DNA of 41,553 nt from Eubacterium sp. (GTDB lineage: Bacteria > Bacillota > Clostridia > Oscillospirales > Acutalibacteraceae), in NCBI GenBank assembly GCA_017450645.1, contig JAFSTE010000008.1, forward strand, positions 1 through 41,553. The letters run 5' to 3'. This document shows, one piece after another, positions 33,639 to 41,553 of the stretch (positions are counted from its first letter, which is position 1; each line of letters opens with the position of its first letter). The notes under the pieces were generated by a model. The model was not told where the DNA came from. It saw only the letters and a program-made list of their open reading frames with translations, and did no database searches. A program made the position numbers and the translations under genes.

Positions 33639-34208
33639 TTAATTCTGTTTTTTATTACTGCTCTGCTGCTTTTTGGCGCTGTCCTTCTTCTTTTGTTCCT
33701 TTTCTTTTTGCGCTTTTAAAGCCTTAAGGCGCTGAGCCTTAAACGAGTCGACATCCATATACTGAATCTGGTTAGACCTCATTTTAGTCATACCGAGTTC
33801 CTCTACGGCGTACTTGTCGATTTTGCTCATTGACACCATATTATTAAGCGCGCTCTGGAGCGAAATAAATTCACTTTCCGCGTTTGCTATAGCAGTCTGC
33901 TTTGCGGTAATCTCGCGCGTAAGCTCGTTTTTAAGCGCAAAGGAGTGCAGCAAAAGACCTATCATCGCAAGGCAAATAACAGCAACTGCGGCAAGCTTTA
34001 CCATCTTTGCAAATGCTGTTTTTTGCTCTTTTTTAAGCTGTGATTTACTTTTGAGCTTCTTGTTTTCGCGCAGTTTGAGTCCGTCGTCGGGCTTTTCCTG
34101 CGGTCTGAGCTTCGGAGCCTGCGAGCCCCTTGCAAAGTCAAATGAATTAATAAGATACGCTGTGTCGCTCTGATACGAATAGCGTCTGAAATCATTTGTA
34201 TTAGTCAC
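33639..34208 (-). CDS. ftsL: FtsL-like divisome protein
   Basis: Small bitopic protein (189 aa): basic cytoplasmic head, membrane helix at about 69-90 (VKLAAVAVICLAMIGLLL), then a leucine-zipper coiled coil with the late 'VEELGMTKMRSNQIQYMDVD' segment typical of FtsL between rsmH and the class B PBP. The tail of about 30 residues is Lys/Gln-rich, longer than usual. Starts: a GTG at 34217 overlaps the GAGGAGG ribosome site, so the GTG at 34208, 8 bp from it, is chosen. A miniature repeat element sits directly upstream. Confidence 0.85.
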   Translation of the reverse strand: MTNTNDFRRYSYQSDTAYLINSFDFARGSQAPKLRPQEKPDDGLKLRENKKLKSKSQLKKEQKTAFAKMVKLAAVAVICLAMIGLLLHSFALKNELTREITAKQTAIANAESEFISLQSALNNMVSMSKIDKYAVEELGMTKMRSNQIQYMDVDSFKAQRLKALKAQKEKEQKKKDSAKKQQSSNKKQN

Positions 34209-34241
34209 TGTATTCACCTCCTCTTATAATTTCTATCTTTG

Positions 34242-34402
34242 TTGCCTCCCTTGCTAAAGGGAGGGGGACCGCTTGCGGTGGAGGGATGGTCGCTCGATTT
34301 AACGAATAATGAAATCAAGCAATCACTTTTTCAACACCTTATTAAAGGCATTGACCACCCCTCAGTCGCCTACGGCGACAGCTCCCCTTGGCAGGGGCGC
34401 CA
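34242..34402. mobile_element. MITE-like element inside the dcw cluster
   Basis: About 160 bp with imperfect inverted ends: TGCCTCCCTTGCTAAAGGGA… at the left and …GGCAGGGGCGCCA at the right, each with its own small hairpin (CCGCTTGCGG; GTCGCCTACGGCGAC). I recall similar 'CCTCCC…AGGGGA' elements in many gut Firmicutes genomes. It fills most of the rsmH-ftsL gap. No coding frame is credible. Confidence 0.65.
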
Positions 34403-34425
34403 AATCAGTTTCTCGCTTTGCTCGG

Positions 34426-35340
34426 TCAATACTTTATAAATGTACGCAGTCGTGACGAGCGGGCGCGGGGATTTTCCTCAAGCTCCGCCTTGCTCGGTGC
34501 TTTTGACTTAAACGGCATTTCGCCGAGAGGCTTTTTGCCGCATACGCACACCGGAAACTCCTTAGGACAGGTGCAGGGGTTAGCCCATTTCGCAAAGCGC
34601 TCCTTAACCATTCTGTCCTCGAGCGAGTGGAAGGTTATCACGCTAATCCTGCCGCCCGGTGCAAGCACGTCAAGCGCGCTGTCAAGTGTCTGCGAGAGCT
34701 TGTCCAGCTCCGCGTTAACCTCTATCCTTATTGCCTGAAACGTTTTTCTCGCGGGGTGCGAGTCGCGCATAGCCTTTTGCGGATACGCGCTCTTTATAAT
34801 ATCTACGAGTTCAAAAGTCGTTTCAATCTCGCCGTTTTGTCTTGCTTCGACGATGTTTTTAGCTATACGGCGCGAAAACTTTTCTTCGCCGTATCTGTAC
34901 AGTATATCCGCGAGCTGTTCCTCGCTGTAGGTGTTTACAACATCCTTAGCCGAGAGTCCCGACTTGCTCATTCTCATATCGAGCGGAGCGTCCTTGTGGT
35001 ACGAAAAGCCGCGTTGGGCGGTATCGAGCTGAAAAGAGCTGACGCCCAAATCGAGCAGCATACCGTCGATACTGTCAAGCCCGAGCGAGCTTACAATGCT
35101 TTTAATATTCACAAAGTTGTCGTTAACAATAGTTACATTGTCAAGGCTGCCGAGTCTTTCGCCGAGCACCTTAATAGCGTCGGGGTCCTGGTCAATAGCG
35201 ATAAGCCTTTTTGCGCGCTTCGCAATCTCGCGCGAATGGCCTCCGCCGCCTGCGGTAAGGTCGGCAATCACCTTTGTATCGTCAATGTTCAGCGAGTCGA
35301 TAGCCTCGTCAAACAGTACGCTTTTGTGTACAAATTCCAT
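34426..35340 (-). CDS. rsmH: 16S rRNA (cytosine-1402 N4) methyltransferase RsmH
   Basis: SAM-dependent methyltransferase (304 aa) that modifies C1402 in the ribosomal P site. SAM motif DLTAGGGGHSREI at about 27-39; the LLDLGVSSFQLD block at 95-106; VITFHSLEDRMVK near the C-terminus. Starts 2 bp after mraZ stops, so translation is coupled. Formerly mraW. Confidence 0.95.
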   Translation of the reverse strand: MEFVHKSVLFDEAIDSLNIDDTKVIADLTAGGGGHSREIAKRAKRLIAIDQDPDAIKVLGERLGSLDNVTIVNDNFVNIKSIVSSLGLDSIDGMLLDLGVSSFQLDTAQRGFSYHKDAPLDMRMSKSGLSAKDVVNTYSEEQLADILYRYGEEKFSRRIAKNIVEARQNGEIETTFELVDIIKSAYPQKAMRDSHPARKTFQAIRIEVNAELDKLSQTLDSALDVLAPGGRISVITFHSLEDRMVKERFAKWANPCTCPKEFPVCVCGKKPLGEMPFKSKAPSKAELEENPRARSSRLRTFIKY

Positions 35341-35342
35341 AT

Positions 35343-35780
35343 TTATAAATCGAACTCGTCAAGAATGTCCTCAACCTCGTCAACGGTAATCTGGCTGAGC
35401 TCAGCCTTAAACTGCTCGCAGTTCCAGATTTCTATTCTTCTGCCGTTACCGAAAACCTCTGCCTGAGCTTCTCCGAGCAGGTCAACCTGGCGTCTCAGCT
35501 CCTCGTTTAAAAGGAGTCTTCCCTGTCCGTCGAGGCTCATCTTTTCGGCGTTTGCAAGGAAGAACAGCTCAAGCTGCTTCCTCTTTTTATGGTTGACATT
35601 CTCGTGAATGTTTTTCATAAACTCGTCCCACTCGTCTATCGGAAAGAGAGCAAGGCATTTGCCGAAGCCGCGCGACGCAACAAATTCTGCACCGAGGTCG
35701 CCACGCATATTAGCAGGGATAGATATTCTGCCCTTAGCGTCAATTTTATTGGTTTTATGACCCATAAAGCTATATTGCAT
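35343..35780 (-). CDS. mraZ: Transcriptional regulator MraZ
   Basis: AbrB-like DNA-binding protein (145 aa) with two tandem swapped-hairpin units; MraZ represses its own dcw operon in other bacteria. The first unit reads 'GHKTNKIDAKGRISIPANMR', the second 'KMSLDGQGRLLLNEELRR' in pattern. The frame extends to 35873, but the conserved start is MQYSFMGHK at 35780 with AAGGAG 10 bp upstream, and the extension would cross the promoter's transcript start. First gene of the cluster. Confidence 0.93.
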   Translation of the reverse strand: MQYSFMGHKTNKIDAKGRISIPANMRGDLGAEFVASRGFGKCLALFPIDEWDEFMKNIHENVNHKKRKQLELFFLANAEKMSLDGQGRLLLNEELRRQVDLLGEAQAEVFGNGRRIEIWNCEQFKAELSQITVDEVEDILDEFDL

Positions 35781-35834
35781 ACTCTCATCTCCTTTCTGAG
35801 TGAATAAAAGATTAATCCGCAAACTTAGGATAAA

Positions 35835-35873
35835 TTTGGGATTAATATGAATTCTTTTGGGATTTCTCCCCAC
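35835..35873 (-). promoter_or_regulatory. Possible MraZ boxes in the mraZ leader
   Basis: On the plus strand TTTGGGA occurs at 35835-35841 and 35856-35862 (21-bp spacing, two helical turns), and GTGGGG occurs on the minus strand at 35868-35873. Known MraZ sites are repeats of TGGGN-type boxes near this promoter, so these are candidates only. Confidence 0.45.
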
Positions 35874-37691: not shown

Positions 37692-40600
37692 TTATTCAAA
37701 ATATGCTTCTGCAGCAACATTGTAGTTGTAAAGGCTTCTGCCGAGGTCGGTTGCGCCGTTGTCGTACGCAGCCTTTGCGTAGTTAAGTACGCTTACCTGT
37801 GCACTTGCATTACCAAGTGTTGCAGTCTTCTGCTCGTCGAAGTCCTCAGGACGAATTGCACCAAGGTCGATGAATACCTTGTCGTTTGTGCCAATGTATG
37901 CGTTAGGAGCTGTTTCAGTGTTGTAGCCAAGAATAGCTGCATCATCTGCTGTAAGGTTAGTATATACACGAAGTGAAGGTGTAGATGTAGCTACAAATGC
38001 AAAATTAACGAATGAGAATGCTTCAGTTGATTCTGCTGTAGCTGCAGTTACCTGTGAGAAATCAGGAGCTGCTGTATTGAAGAATGCATGCTCGAAGTTT
38101 TCTGCTGTGTATGTACCGCCGATAAATCCACCTGCTTCGTAGATTGCCTTACCATAGTCGTACATAGCCTCTACAAAGTTCTTCTCGTCGCCTGCCGGAA
38201 GCTCTTCTGAAGCCTGGAGACAGTAATCTACGATTGATGTTGTGATAGTCTTAACCTTTGTTGCGCCGTCATAAATCTCGATTGTGATGTCGTCATTCAT
38301 CTGTGCAGGAGCCTGCTCAACGTTGATAACCCAGTTGCCGTCGTATGTGCCGCCGGACTGCTTTGTAGCCGTAGCGTTTGTAACTGTGAATGAAGCGCTG
38401 TCCTTATCGATTGCGCCGCTCGTCGAAGAGCCGTCTTCGTTGTTGTTGTATGTTACTACAACGCTTGCGTTATCTTCGTCTGCATAAGCAGCAACGTCAA
38501 TGTAAGCGTTCATTGAAGTTGTTGAATCAGAAATTACGCTGTAGCCGTTGTTACCCTCAGGATATACCTGCTCACCGTCTTTAACAAGTTTAACTGTATC
38601 GCAAACGAGTTCGATGATAGCTTCTTGCTCGAAGTATCCGTCGCCGTCCCAGTCAAATGTGTACTCCCATGTTTTGTTCTCACCTGCCGCGATAGCAGCT
38701 TCAAGGCTCTCTACTGTTACATGAGGCCACGAGTACATGAAGTTAGCGCCATCCTTTGCAGTGTAAAGGTTCTTAACTTTAAGCTGACCTGTTGTAGAAT
38801 CAATAGAACCGTTTGTGTAACGTGCATTCTCGGAGATTACAGTTCCTTCGGGAGCAATAAACTTAATGCCGCCCATGTAATAGCCAGCGTAATATCTGCC
38901 TACTGAATAATCCGGGTCTGCATAGCTTAATGAAGAATTAGAAATAGTAATCTTTTCGTGAGCAGTACCGTTACCGGTAATTTCAGCATCGCCTGCCTGA
39001 TACAAACCGATTGTACCGTATGCAATAGGAGCGATTACATAACCGCCTGCTGTTTCGTCATAAACAGTCTTATAATCCTCAGCAGCAAGTGCAGTTACAT
39101 TGCTCGAGAATACAGCTGTTGAATTACCGGGGATAACGTTGTCAACTCTCGGGAAATCAGCAGTCGGATAAAGCGGGTCGTCCTGCTTAGCATAGCTTGC
39201 TACAGCTGCGCCGTTTGCAGAAGTAATTGTACCAGCCTTAACTGTAACGGTAGGAACGTTACCCGGATAACCGCAAGAATCGATGATGATTGCGTCGCCT
39301 GTGCCGTTAGCGCCGTTAGTATTGAACTTATAGTCAGTCTTTTCGCCGGTTGCAGTAATAGCAGCGTTACCATAAATGTTCATTGTACCGGACTTAATGT
39401 AAACGCCTGAACCACCGGTAAGGTTAGCATTTGAGTAGATGTTCCACTTAGCATAACCAGCTGCATAAACAACAGCATTTTCGTTGCTTGCAGTAACTGT
39501 ACCAGTGATGTTGATAGCAGCTGCATTAGTCTTTACAGCAGGCTCAGCAACGTTACCGTTGATGTAAACGCCGTACTTAGAATTGATAGTACCGCCGAGC
39601 TGAAGCTTTGCACCGTATGCAGCACCGCTTGTAGCACCAATCATAGCACCGTAACCGTTAGGAGCATTAATTGTTGCAGGTGAGGTAAGTGTAAATGTGC
39701 TGTAGTTTGAACCGCTATCGGTAGCTGCACCGTAAACGGCTACTGCAGCATTAGCGCCTGTAAAGTTTGCGTTAAGATTACCGGTACCTTTAAGTGTAAG
39801 CTGACCGTGACGGATGTTGAATGCACGAGCAGTAGTAGTAATGTCGTTACCGTTCAAATCAATAGTAATCTTCTGATTGTCGGCAATTTCATATGTTGAC
39901 GCAAGTGTGCAATCATCAAGAAGAGTGATTGTTGCAGTAGCACCTGCAGCTACAGAATCAAGAGCATCTTTAAGTGATGTGAATTCTGCAGAATTAGTTC
40001 TTGCTACTGTGCTTGCGTCAACGTTCTTGATTTCACCAGTTGTGTTGTCAATAATCTGGTCTGCCGGAAGGTATGCAGATACTGCCGTGTTCGGCTCGCC
40101 TGCATTTGTCAAGTAAGTACCGCCGTTAAGCTCAGTAGTAGCCTTGGATGTATCAAGTGACATTGTGCCGTTGAATTCACCGTCGTTAATAACTAATGTT
40201 GTATCTGTTGTGTTACCTTCAGAAATAACATAGTCAGACGACTTACCTGTTGTGAATGTACCGTCGTTGATTACAACTTCACCGCGCGAGTTATTAATGA
40301 TATAGTCGCGATATGTTCTTGTTGCACCTGTGTTAGTAACCGTCTCGAACTCACCGTCGTTGATAGTAGTGCTTGCATCTGCAGAATTCTGATAAATGAT
40401 AACACCACTACGGTTTGCCTTATCCATTACATACTTACCGCTGTCGATTACAAGCTCAGATGTATCAAGTACATTGAAGATGTAAGCAGAAGAGTTTGCG
40501 CCGTAGGTAGCATAGATTGCACCGCCGCCAACGCTGTCCTTAACAGTAAGCTTTGCACCGTTTTTAAGCACGAACAGGTCGGTAGGATACGTAACAGTAG

Positions 40601-40880
40601 TTTCACCGCTTACACGGAAATACTGTGTGTGACCTTTAAGGTCGATTGTGATATCCTTGCCGTCTACAGGAATAACAAGTGCGCCTGATGTTGTTGCAGG
40701 ATAAGTTGTGTTGTCTGCAGTAAACTCGATTACATCGCCGTCTGCAGCAGCAGCAACAGCTGCTTTAAGCTCAGCGCCGTTTGCAACGGTTGTAGTTGCA
40801 GCGAATACGGTGAAAGGCATCATTGATACAGCCATAAGAACCGAAAGAGCAATCGCAACGATTTTCTTAGAAATTCTCAT
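37692..40880 (-). CDS. Secreted beta-helix-like surface protein
   Basis: Exported protein of 1062 aa. Sec signal peptide with cleavage near TVFA-ATTT (residue about 28). The N-terminal half resembles pectate-lyase-like right-handed beta helices: 'GAELKAAVAAAADGDVIEF' and a second 'SLKDALDSVAAGATATITLLDDC' start, each followed by short turns such as 'LVINDGEFNG' and 'LTLKGTGNLN'. The C-terminal third holds a segment with 'FDWDGDGYFEQEAI' and ends with an 'LYNYNVAAEAYF' helix often seen at the end of clostridial exported proteins. No LPXTG motif. Probably an adhesin or glycan-binding protein. The frame opens at 40889, but AAGGA is only 1 bp from that ATG and 10 bp from the ATG at 40880, which is chosen. 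Confidence 0.8.
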   Translation of the reverse strand: MRISKKIVAIALSVLMAVSMMPFTVFAATTTVANGAELKAAVAAAADGDVIEFTADNTTYPATTSGALVIPVDGKDITIDLKGHTQYFRVSGETTVTYPTDLFVLKNGAKLTVKDSVGGGAIYATYGANSSAYIFNVLDTSELVIDSGKYVMDKANRSGVIIYQNSADASTTINDGEFETVTNTGATRTYRDYIINNSRGEVVINDGTFTTGKSSDYVISEGNTTDTTLVINDGEFNGTMSLDTSKATTELNGGTYLTNAGEPNTAVSAYLPADQIIDNTTGEIKNVDASTVARTNSAEFTSLKDALDSVAAGATATITLLDDCTLASTYEIADNQKITIDLNGNDITTTARAFNIRHGQLTLKGTGNLNANFTGANAAVAVYGAATDSGSNYSTFTLTSPATINAPNGYGAMIGATSGAAYGAKLQLGGTINSKYGVYINGNVAEPAVKTNAAAINITGTVTASNENAVVYAAGYAKWNIYSNANLTGGSGVYIKSGTMNIYGNAAITATGEKTDYKFNTNGANGTGDAIIIDSCGYPGNVPTVTVKAGTITSANGAAVASYAKQDDPLYPTADFPRVDNVIPGNSTAVFSSNVTALAAEDYKTVYDETAGGYVIAPIAYGTIGLYQAGDAEITGNGTAHEKITISNSSLSYADPDYSVGRYYAGYYMGGIKFIAPEGTVISENARYTNGSIDSTTGQLKVKNLYTAKDGANFMYSWPHVTVESLEAAIAAGENKTWEYTFDWDGDGYFEQEAIIELVCDTVKLVKDGEQVYPEGNNGYSVISDSTTSMNAYIDVAAYADEDNASVVVTYNNNEDGSSTSGAIDKDSASFTVTNATATKQSGGTYDGNWVINVEQAPAQMNDDITIEIYDGATKVKTITTSIVDYCLQASEELPAGDEKNFVEAMYDYGKAIYEAGGFIGGTYTAENFEHAFFNTAAPDFSQVTAATAESTEAFSFVNFAFVATSTPSLRVYTNLTADDAAILGYNTETAPNAYIGTNDKVFIDLGAIRPEDFDEQKTATLGNASAQVSVLNYAKAAYDNGATDLGRSLYNYNVAAEAYFE

Positions 40881-40939
40881 TTTAATCATTTCCTTTCATA
40901 ATTTGATTTAAATTTTTGTGTTTTTTATAAAACAGGAAT

Positions 40940-41184
40940 TCCGAATAACTCGGATATGAGATACTCTCAGCTGACCGCATACATAGTAACTATGTATCTG
41001 AAAGTTTTTCTCCCTAATTTAGCATAGACAGGTCGAACCCGATAAAGTCAACCCGTCCAAGTCGGCCTGATAAGGTTCGACTTGTCTACGCTTAAACTCC
41101 TGGATTATACAGTTGTTGCAACGGGGTTAGCGACATGCCCGCTGCACTTAAGCAGCAGGCGGTCACTAAGACTGAGAGTATCTC
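40940..41184 (-). ncRNA. Large multi-branched structured RNA upstream of the surface-protein gene
   Basis: On the minus strand a perfect 13-bp stem (41172-41184 with 40958-40970) encloses the region and continues with TGACCGC/GCGGTCA (41159-41165 with 40972-40978). Inside are an 18-bp stem with one mismatch (41074-41092 with 41021-41039), a hairpin ATACATAG/CTATGTAT (40979-40997), and a GCTGC hairpin (41141-41156). A small TCCGA/TCGGA hairpin with a U-rich tail closes the 3' side (40940-40954). Size and branching resemble the raiA class of clostridial RNAs or an unnamed class; I cannot confirm either. The surface-protein ATG lies 60 nt further on. Confidence 0.75.
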
Positions 41185-41198
41185 TCATTCCCGTTTAC

Positions 41199-41258
41199 AA
41201 AAAAAAGCGATGTATTAACAAAAGGGCGCAAAGTGCCCTAATATATTAATACATTCGC
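41199..41258 (-). terminator. Terminator-like hairpin just behind the promoter
   Basis: GCG-ATGTATTAA (41246-41258) pairs with TTAATACATCGC (41207-41218), with an inner AGGGC/GCCCT stem, then eight U residues on the minus strand (41199-41206). It directly follows the -10 box and precedes the structured RNA, so it may attenuate the operon or end a transcript from beyond the window. Confidence 0.7.
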
Positions 41259-41287
41259 ATTATATCAAATTTAAAATAAAGTGTCAA
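41259..41287 (-). promoter_or_regulatory. Full-consensus promoter of the RNA/surface-protein operon
   Basis: Minus strand TTGACA (41282-41287), exactly 17 bp, TATAAT (41259-41264); start near 41252. Confidence 0.85.
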
Positions 41288-41412
41288 TACATATTAGGAA
41301 ATTTATGAACAAATTGTAAATTTTTTAAAATTTCGACAAAAATAGACATTTGTAGCGGTTTATGAGTTGAAAATTGAGAGTTTCGGGTGCTGCGCACGTC
41401 CAAACACATTTC

Positions 41413-41504
41413 GTGATTAAGGCAAAACTAAAGTTTTGCTGACAATCACTTCATATGTTTCTCCTTGTCAAATCAAAATTCGGCTTCGCCTGCTTTTTGA
41501 TTTG
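41413..41504 (-). repeat. Structured dispersed repeat, minus-strand copy
   Basis: Inverted copy of the element at 9883-9975. Same order: AAATCAAAA/TTTTGATTT hairpin, CAAGGAGAAACATATG spacer, GTGATT…GCAAAAC-TTTA-GTTTTGC…AATCAC hairpin. Loops and inner stems differ while pairing is kept. Confidence 0.7.
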
Positions 41505-41507
41505 TAG

Positions 41508-41527
41508 GGGCGATTCACGAATCGCCC
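41508..41527. repeat. Perfect palindrome next to the structured repeat
   Basis: GGGCGATTC-AC-GAATCGCCC, 9-bp arms. Another small palindrome TGGAC/GTCCA stands at the end of the window (41541-41553). Region 41290-41412 holds nothing I recognise. Confidence 0.6.
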
Positions 41528-41553
41528 GTTAAATCAGGTGTGGACGGAGTCCA

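Follow-up and report, generated by a model that had tools for sequence, protein, structure and literature searches.

A small bulged hairpin with compensatory changes in the leaders of surface-protein genes of Eubacterium sp. and related Clostridia

The locus and its leader

The window, a stretch of 41,553 nucleotides from Eubacterium sp., contains a surface-protein gene on the minus strand (37692–40880), which encodes 1062 aa from the ATG at 40880 and begins with the signal peptide MRISKKIVAIALSVLMAVSMMPFTVFA. An alternative in-frame start is present at 40889, and the Shine-Dalgarno sequence AAAGGA is found just before the start codon. The 1062-aa protein had no match in Pfam or NCBIfam. Nearby open reading frames on the same strand (33639–35873) resemble ftsL, rsmH (mraW) and mraZ, and we take them to belong to the division cluster. 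All leader features described below are on the minus strand, and the contig ends at 41553, upstream of the promoter.

The leader starts with a sigma-70-type promoter, TTGACA-17-TATAAT (41287–41259), which was identified by consensus match and agrees at 12/12 positions, as stated in the preliminary description. With the end of the -10 box at 41259, the predicted +1 was placed at about 41252. The hairpin with eight U residues reported behind the promoter was also found; 41252–41212 folds at −14.3 kcal/mol and the U8 run occupies 41206–41199. A longer, terminator-like stem (41258–41207, GCGA-A-UGUAUUAAUA../..UUAAUACAUCGC) abuts the U8 run directly and folds at −21.9 kcal/mol, and none of 1000 base shuffles of 41258–41208 was as low. 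Its base, GCGA...UCGC, is complete only in transcripts that come in from upstream. A transcript with its start at about 41252, folded to 41207, lacks GCGA and reaches −16.0 kcal/mol. A GC-closed stem thus stands directly before the U run in read-through RNA, against five unpaired bases in between for a start at about 41252, and three for a hypothetical start at 41254. For the likely promoter start the hairpin-U8 is not a textbook terminator, since the five unpaired bases part the stem from the U run, and RNA from this promoter cannot complete the stem because bases 41258–41255 lie upstream of the likely +1. The earlier claim that the RNA can be made only if the terminator is bypassed is therefore probably wrong, whereas read-through RNA can complete the stem. 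Most likely the hairpin-U8 acts as a terminator against read-through from upstream that would be disarmed for RNA of its own promoter, in which, on the simplest reading, the terminator-like stem becomes the shorter 5'-terminal hairpin (41252–41212).

Further downstream, the predicted 227-nt RNA closed by a perfect 13-bp stem (41184–41172 with 40970–40958) was recovered, with more helices inside; 60–80 nt separate it from the coding sequence. Compared with dinucleotide shuffles, folding gave z −10.6 for 41252–40890 (0/100 as low) and z −8.0 for 41200–40935 (0/200 as low). The plus strand of the latter stretch gave z −7.9, as inverted repeats would, so that fold energy alone cannot pick the strand. 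In the lowest-energy fold an outer stem is predicted between AAACGGGAAU (41196–41187) and 40939–40930, and two hairpins specific to the window are predicted at 41169–41127 and, the longer one, at 41093–41021.

The 13-bp stem belongs to one of two mutually exclusive predicted folds, and it is the other, compact fold that is conserved in relatives. The 3' arm common to both (40970–40958) alternatively pairs with the local ACTTTCAG (41005–40998). In the compact fold the conserved core (41004–40964) consists of this local stem P2 (41005–40998 with 40970–40963), the hairpin P3 (40997–40979) and, between P3 and the P2 3' arm, the bulge GCGGUCAG (40978–40971), and the window-specific 5' arm of the 13-bp stem (41184–41172) can alternatively form a small hairpin of its own, GAGAG-AUA-CUCUC. 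Whole-leader energy was −141.4 with the 13-bp stem versus −135.4 in the compact fold, which is thus 6 kcal/mol less stable, and the conserved P2 is absent from the lowest-energy fold of the window. In lowest-energy folds of growing prefixes, which are not a kinetic simulation, the local domains appeared before the 13-bp stem, which formed after emergence of its 3' arm. By eye, the heptamer UGACCGC was spotted in the window-only hairpin (41165–41159 within 41169–41127) as the exact complement of 7/8 conserved bulge bases; by our own estimate it would occur by chance in about 1% of 200-nt stretches.

A conserved core in leaders of relatives

Searches with blastn using the whole leader returned only fragments of 15–43 bases in 200 family and 80 genus genomes, which were judged to be chance, and no match in phages or plasmids; no relative with the 13-bp stem or the other window-only helices was found in these nucleotide searches. 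A search with the protein alone in 118 genomes yielded 17 places including the N-terminus, namely the window and 16 others. GGTCAG was present upstream of the start codon in all 16 of the others, 11 of them having it as GNGGTCAG. Orthologs with 84–85% identity over about 620 residues (G245, G215 and G214) carry the element in short leaders from which the long RNA of the window is absent.

In these leaders the P2 5' arm ends in ..C-N-G and is directly followed by the hairpin P3 (often AUAU..AUAU), then by an unpaired eight-base stretch, GNGGUCAG, and the P2 3' arm (C-N-G..). Core pairs were named by hand from individual folds. RNAalifold found no consensus pairs in the first raw MAFFT alignment, in which the hand-named core was paired in 79.2% of cells versus 66.5% in shuffles; the outer stem P1 was paired in 71.3% of cells and, being weakly supported, is not claimed here. 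Alignment A2 was left out because long-loop members were misplaced. Alignment A3 consisted of 21 cores, with loops shortened by hand in 14/21, and was paired in 81.3% of cells compared to 55.6% in shuffles, with a covariation score of 0.648 versus 0.190 (0/500). Sliding the partners by 1–3 columns destroyed the signal (at most 48.4% paired, score 0.154).

Two models were built, R1 from the whole compact leader (9 sequences) and R2 from the core (21 sequences), with the window in neither. R1 matched the window at 40924–41021 (29.3 bits, E 0.0075, the only match at E≤5 in its genome) and R2 at 40964–41004 (34.1 bits, E 2.1e-6, the only match at E≤1 in its genome), the latter using the local P2 and not the 13-bp stem. 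At E≤1, R2 matched 10/16 leaders of the other N-terminal homologues (11/17 with the window); the six that were missed, including those of the G245 and G214 orthologs, contain GGTCAG with a poorer stem fit or long loops. From 53 sources given to R2, 50 matches were obtained, as R2 did not match the protein-recruited L111, L059 and L077 at E≤0.05. Two matches inside coding sequence (L206, L209) were taken as false; they were kept in sets of n=50 and dropped in sets of n=48.

Alignment A4, with the 50 R2 matches (46 distinct rows) fitted to R2, was paired in 88.9% of cells against 63.9% in shuffles, had a covariation score of 0.614 against 0.168 and showed a change on both sides in 10/11 pairs. 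Among 48 cores (the two likely false matches dropped), bulge column 1 was G in 45, column 2 was C/T/G/A in 33/9/5/1 and column 3 was G in 47, while columns 4–8 were G, U, C, A and G in 48/48; this invariance, partly forced by the model, and the pairing values are inflated, since R2 was trained on motif-selected sequences, 14/21 loops were shortened and A4 was fitted to R2. At the level of sequence comparison, a shared motif with compensatory changes in both stems and a fixed orientation is shown. The hexamer GGUCAG also occurs in SRP RNA; mimicry of SRP RNA was considered and dropped, as the partner strand differs and the six-base match is weak.

In the genus, 30 R2 matches of at least 27 bits, window included, were found in 16/80 genomes, 19 being A3 training members and 11 not, and the other 64/80 genomes had no match at this level. 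Among 300 genomes of the family, four besides the window's own exceeded 26 bits (G073, G184, G087 and G355) and belong to three other genera. The best non-window match in 394 genomes of the order reached 24.6 bits and was taken as background. All R2 counts are lower bounds, as strict filters lose members (the G214 ortholog leader was missed, and G240 reached 20.2 bits). A pattern scan of genome contigs gave 28 stretches, 7 of which were counted as new leaders (L221, L223, L233, L235, L237, L239 and L245) and 5 as re-finds of genus copies, judged by core and protein (L225, L227, L234, L238 and L244). These 12 accepted contigs are gut or rumen MAGs labelled Eubacterium, Ruminococcus, Ruminococcaceae, Clostridiales or Clostridia. 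The remaining 16/28 had a weak P2 or lacked the gene context and were regarded as chance matches; they came from Prevotella, Sphingobacterium, Spirochaetales, Terriglobia and other taxa. The core pattern was also matched in two viral contigs.

Signal-peptide ORFs were called with a simple rule of our own. One lay within 700 nt on the same strand in 43/50 core matches (L245 doubtful). The seven matches without such an ORF were at contig ends (L198, L136, L138 and L235), within coding sequence (L206, L209) or had none (L239). When only the 36 matches recruited independently of the protein search were considered, 24 had a signal-peptide ORF within 200 nt; the same distance gave 0/50 on the flipped strand, 1/34 for weak control matches and 5.7% for 2000 positions drawn at random from these loci. 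Repeats separate the core from the gene in several leaders, with up to 485 nt between the two, and a signal-peptide gene follows there too. Pfam was run on 20 downstream proteins, many of them cut by locus ends, and matched BspA-type LRR, beta-helix, ubiquitin-like, fn3, CBM26 and other domains, with 6/20 having no Pfam match. That unrelated proteins have a leader in common is evidence against a single gene family related by simple descent.

Two of the downstream proteins (L213:3-1856 and L215:771-2501) have a ubiquitin-family match, PF00240 (78.6 and 58.7 bits), behind the signal peptide, and one of them also carries BspA-type LRR. A MITE-like repeat insert was seen 3' of the core, between core and gene, in L213 and L211 (its left end also in L214); the inverted ends of the L213 insert are TTAAGGCAACGCCGCAT and ATGCGGTGTTGCCTTAA.

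Promoters scoring 11 or more of 13 were regarded as strong and were present in 23/48 leaders, with the core 5–27 nt after the predicted +1 in 19/23. The exceptions were L223 (95), L239 (78), L113 (42, match misplaced) and the window (248); since the search went further than 150 nt upstream in the window only, large distances in other leaders would have escaped it. In a control limited to 150 nt, 22/48 real leaders had a strong promoter (19 at 4–27 nt), whereas 50 rounds of shuffled upstream DNA yielded, on average, 0.36 per 48. It is thereby shown that the core follows closely on predicted promoters and precedes genes of secreted proteins, as far as both can be called from sequence.

Homologues in front of several genes, compensatory changes in the stems and independent recognition of the window copy were all found, as expected if a set of genes has a structured leader RNA acting in cis. 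The suggestion of a regulatory leader in the preliminary description is borne out by this conserved core in the 5' leaders of the window gene and of many other surface-protein genes; covariation, by which that reading was to be judged, is present in the core.

Comparison with known RNAs and possible mode of action

Rfam at gathering thresholds identified only tRNA in the full window, and at E≤10 two weak matches in 40880–41553, both outside the RNA. When loci of relatives (10 and 18) were scanned with Rfam 15 at permissive thresholds, all matches listed fell outside the cores, and no riboswitch family of Rfam matched on the scanned cores. Gut-1 RNA (RF01706, 60.5 bits) was found at L198:686-756, a hairpin-rich stretch just 3' of a core copy. 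A literature search for GCGGUCAG/GGUCAGC did not find the motif in the titles and abstract starts of part of the matches, and the main texts of PMC8040213 and PMC2864571 make no mention of surface, secreted or signal-peptide terms.

The stand-alone RNA, raiA-like in size, that the preliminary description offered as one possibility is not supported: no Rfam family matched on the RNA, and raiA (RF03072) was unmatched both in the window and, at E≤1, in its assembly, which is 87% complete and whose search had no strong positive control, since none of 14 control genomes came over the cut-off. In excerpts of PMC11706538, raiA/ModT of C. difficile is an abundant RNA with isoforms of 215 and 260 nt, has its own promoter and acts in trans. 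The window version is like it in size and multi-branched fold, and unlike it in lacking any sequence or structure match and in preceding a coding sequence, into which it runs after 60–80 nt. That a stand-alone small RNA of this kind precedes the gene by accident would agree with the strong promoter and the very stable fold; given that only a weak terminator-like site (40954–40940) lies between RNA and ATG and that a coding sequence is mostly retained behind the conserved core, we give this reading hardly any credence. An element acting as DNA, in which a regulator or recombinase would recognise an operator or a hairpin of single-stranded DNA, is quite improbable as well. Its inverted repeat and its operator-like distance from promoters would suit such a site, and recombination could shuffle related promoters and signal peptides, but the arms change with compensation rather than keeping a fixed operator sequence, and the conserved part is one-sided, on the sense strand of the gene, as seen in the flipped-strand control.

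Stable structures at the very 5' end are found in the B. subtilis aprE leader and in E. coli ompA, both messages of exported proteins. The element is like them in position and differs in that the core holds its bulge sequence while the stems covary. A plain 5' message stabiliser, for which any stable 5' hairpin suffices and no sequence is recognised, would explain the proximity of the core to the predicted +1 in most strong-promoter leaders and the hairpin at about +1 with which the window RNA opens, and 5' stem-loops are reported as stabilising aprE, ompA and papA mRNAs in titles cited in PMC3997798. It would, however, need no fixed single-stranded sequence, and a nearly invariant bulge on freely varying stems makes this explanation unlikely.

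A new riboswitch class, with bulge and junction as a small-molecule pocket that switches the fold, seems to us improbable to a similar degree. A conserved, covarying, aptamer-like domain with conserved unpaired bases does stand in 5' leaders before a coherent gene set, the two mutually exclusive folds of the window copy differ by 6 kcal/mol and, according to passages of PMC6200980, c-di-GMP riboswitches (c-di-GMP-I/II) precede putative surface-protein genes in Clostridioides difficile as structured 5' leaders common to several of them. The core is unlike these in having no Rfam riboswitch match and no visible terminator or ribosome-site switch. The ribosome site paired with the core at a mean of at most 0.3 in 34/34 leaders with the ATG within 130 nt, and 3/34 had six or more consecutive T between the core and the ATG; neither a core-tied terminator nor ribosome-site masking by the core was found in these 34 leaders. 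In 4/34, pairing of the ribosome site with other parts of the leader exceeded 90%, which leaves room for some translational masking. With low ribosome-site pairing and few T runs, the family as a whole shows no standard riboswitch platform, although individual copies may be different; core-to-gene distances reaching 485 nt and the very small size of the conserved part also speak against a riboswitch.

On balance, we believe that the element represents a new family of cis-acting leader RNA that serves a regulon of surface proteins; a factor acting in trans probably reads it. We infer this factor and its effect, and recognition in trans is what best fits a coherent set of messages whose 5' ends bear a hairpin with a conserved bulge and freely covarying stems. 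The element would be the P2-P3 hairpin near the message 5' end, with the bulge GNGGUCAG displayed on its 3' side, and would work as RNA, marking the mRNAs of surface proteins with signal peptides across one genus of the family and three of its sister genera. A factor, most likely an RNA-binding protein, would recognise the bulge and set the stability or translation of these messages as a group, and the 5'-terminal structure may also protect the message from decay.

If this regulon exists, uncultured gut and rumen Clostridia would coordinate BspA-LRR, beta-helix, ubiquitin-like, carbohydrate-binding and other surface proteins via one small RNA element, for which Rfam 15 gave no match. The element would offer a ready regulon definition and a simple eight-base recognition element. 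A more speculative and rather unlikely extension takes the bulged hairpin as an address tag of secreted-protein messages, with GNGGUCAG read by one RNA-binding factor or a new ligand and the window copy as a two-state device; the tag could then serve to place messages at the membrane or to turn unrelated surface proteins on and off jointly, and in the window copy the extra upstream strand could open it.

The expanded copy in the window

Between promoter and core, the window has the extra helices 41169–41127 and 41093–41021 and the distal arm 41184–41172. Its leader is an expanded form of the compact element that has gained extra structured domains, and its core consequently lies about 220 nt further downstream. 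As the extra domains offer a competing 13-bp partner, the window copy may toggle between the compact fold, with the core formed, and the long-range fold, with the core opened. Were the regulon real, the copy would be a natural experiment in which the element has been expanded into a possible switch. In the leader of the G245 gene, an ortholog of 85% identity (L059:1969-2190, minus strand), an AU-rich hairpin follows the promoter and is itself followed by AACGGGAA, as is the case in the window; the two leaders may therefore have some of the expansion in common.
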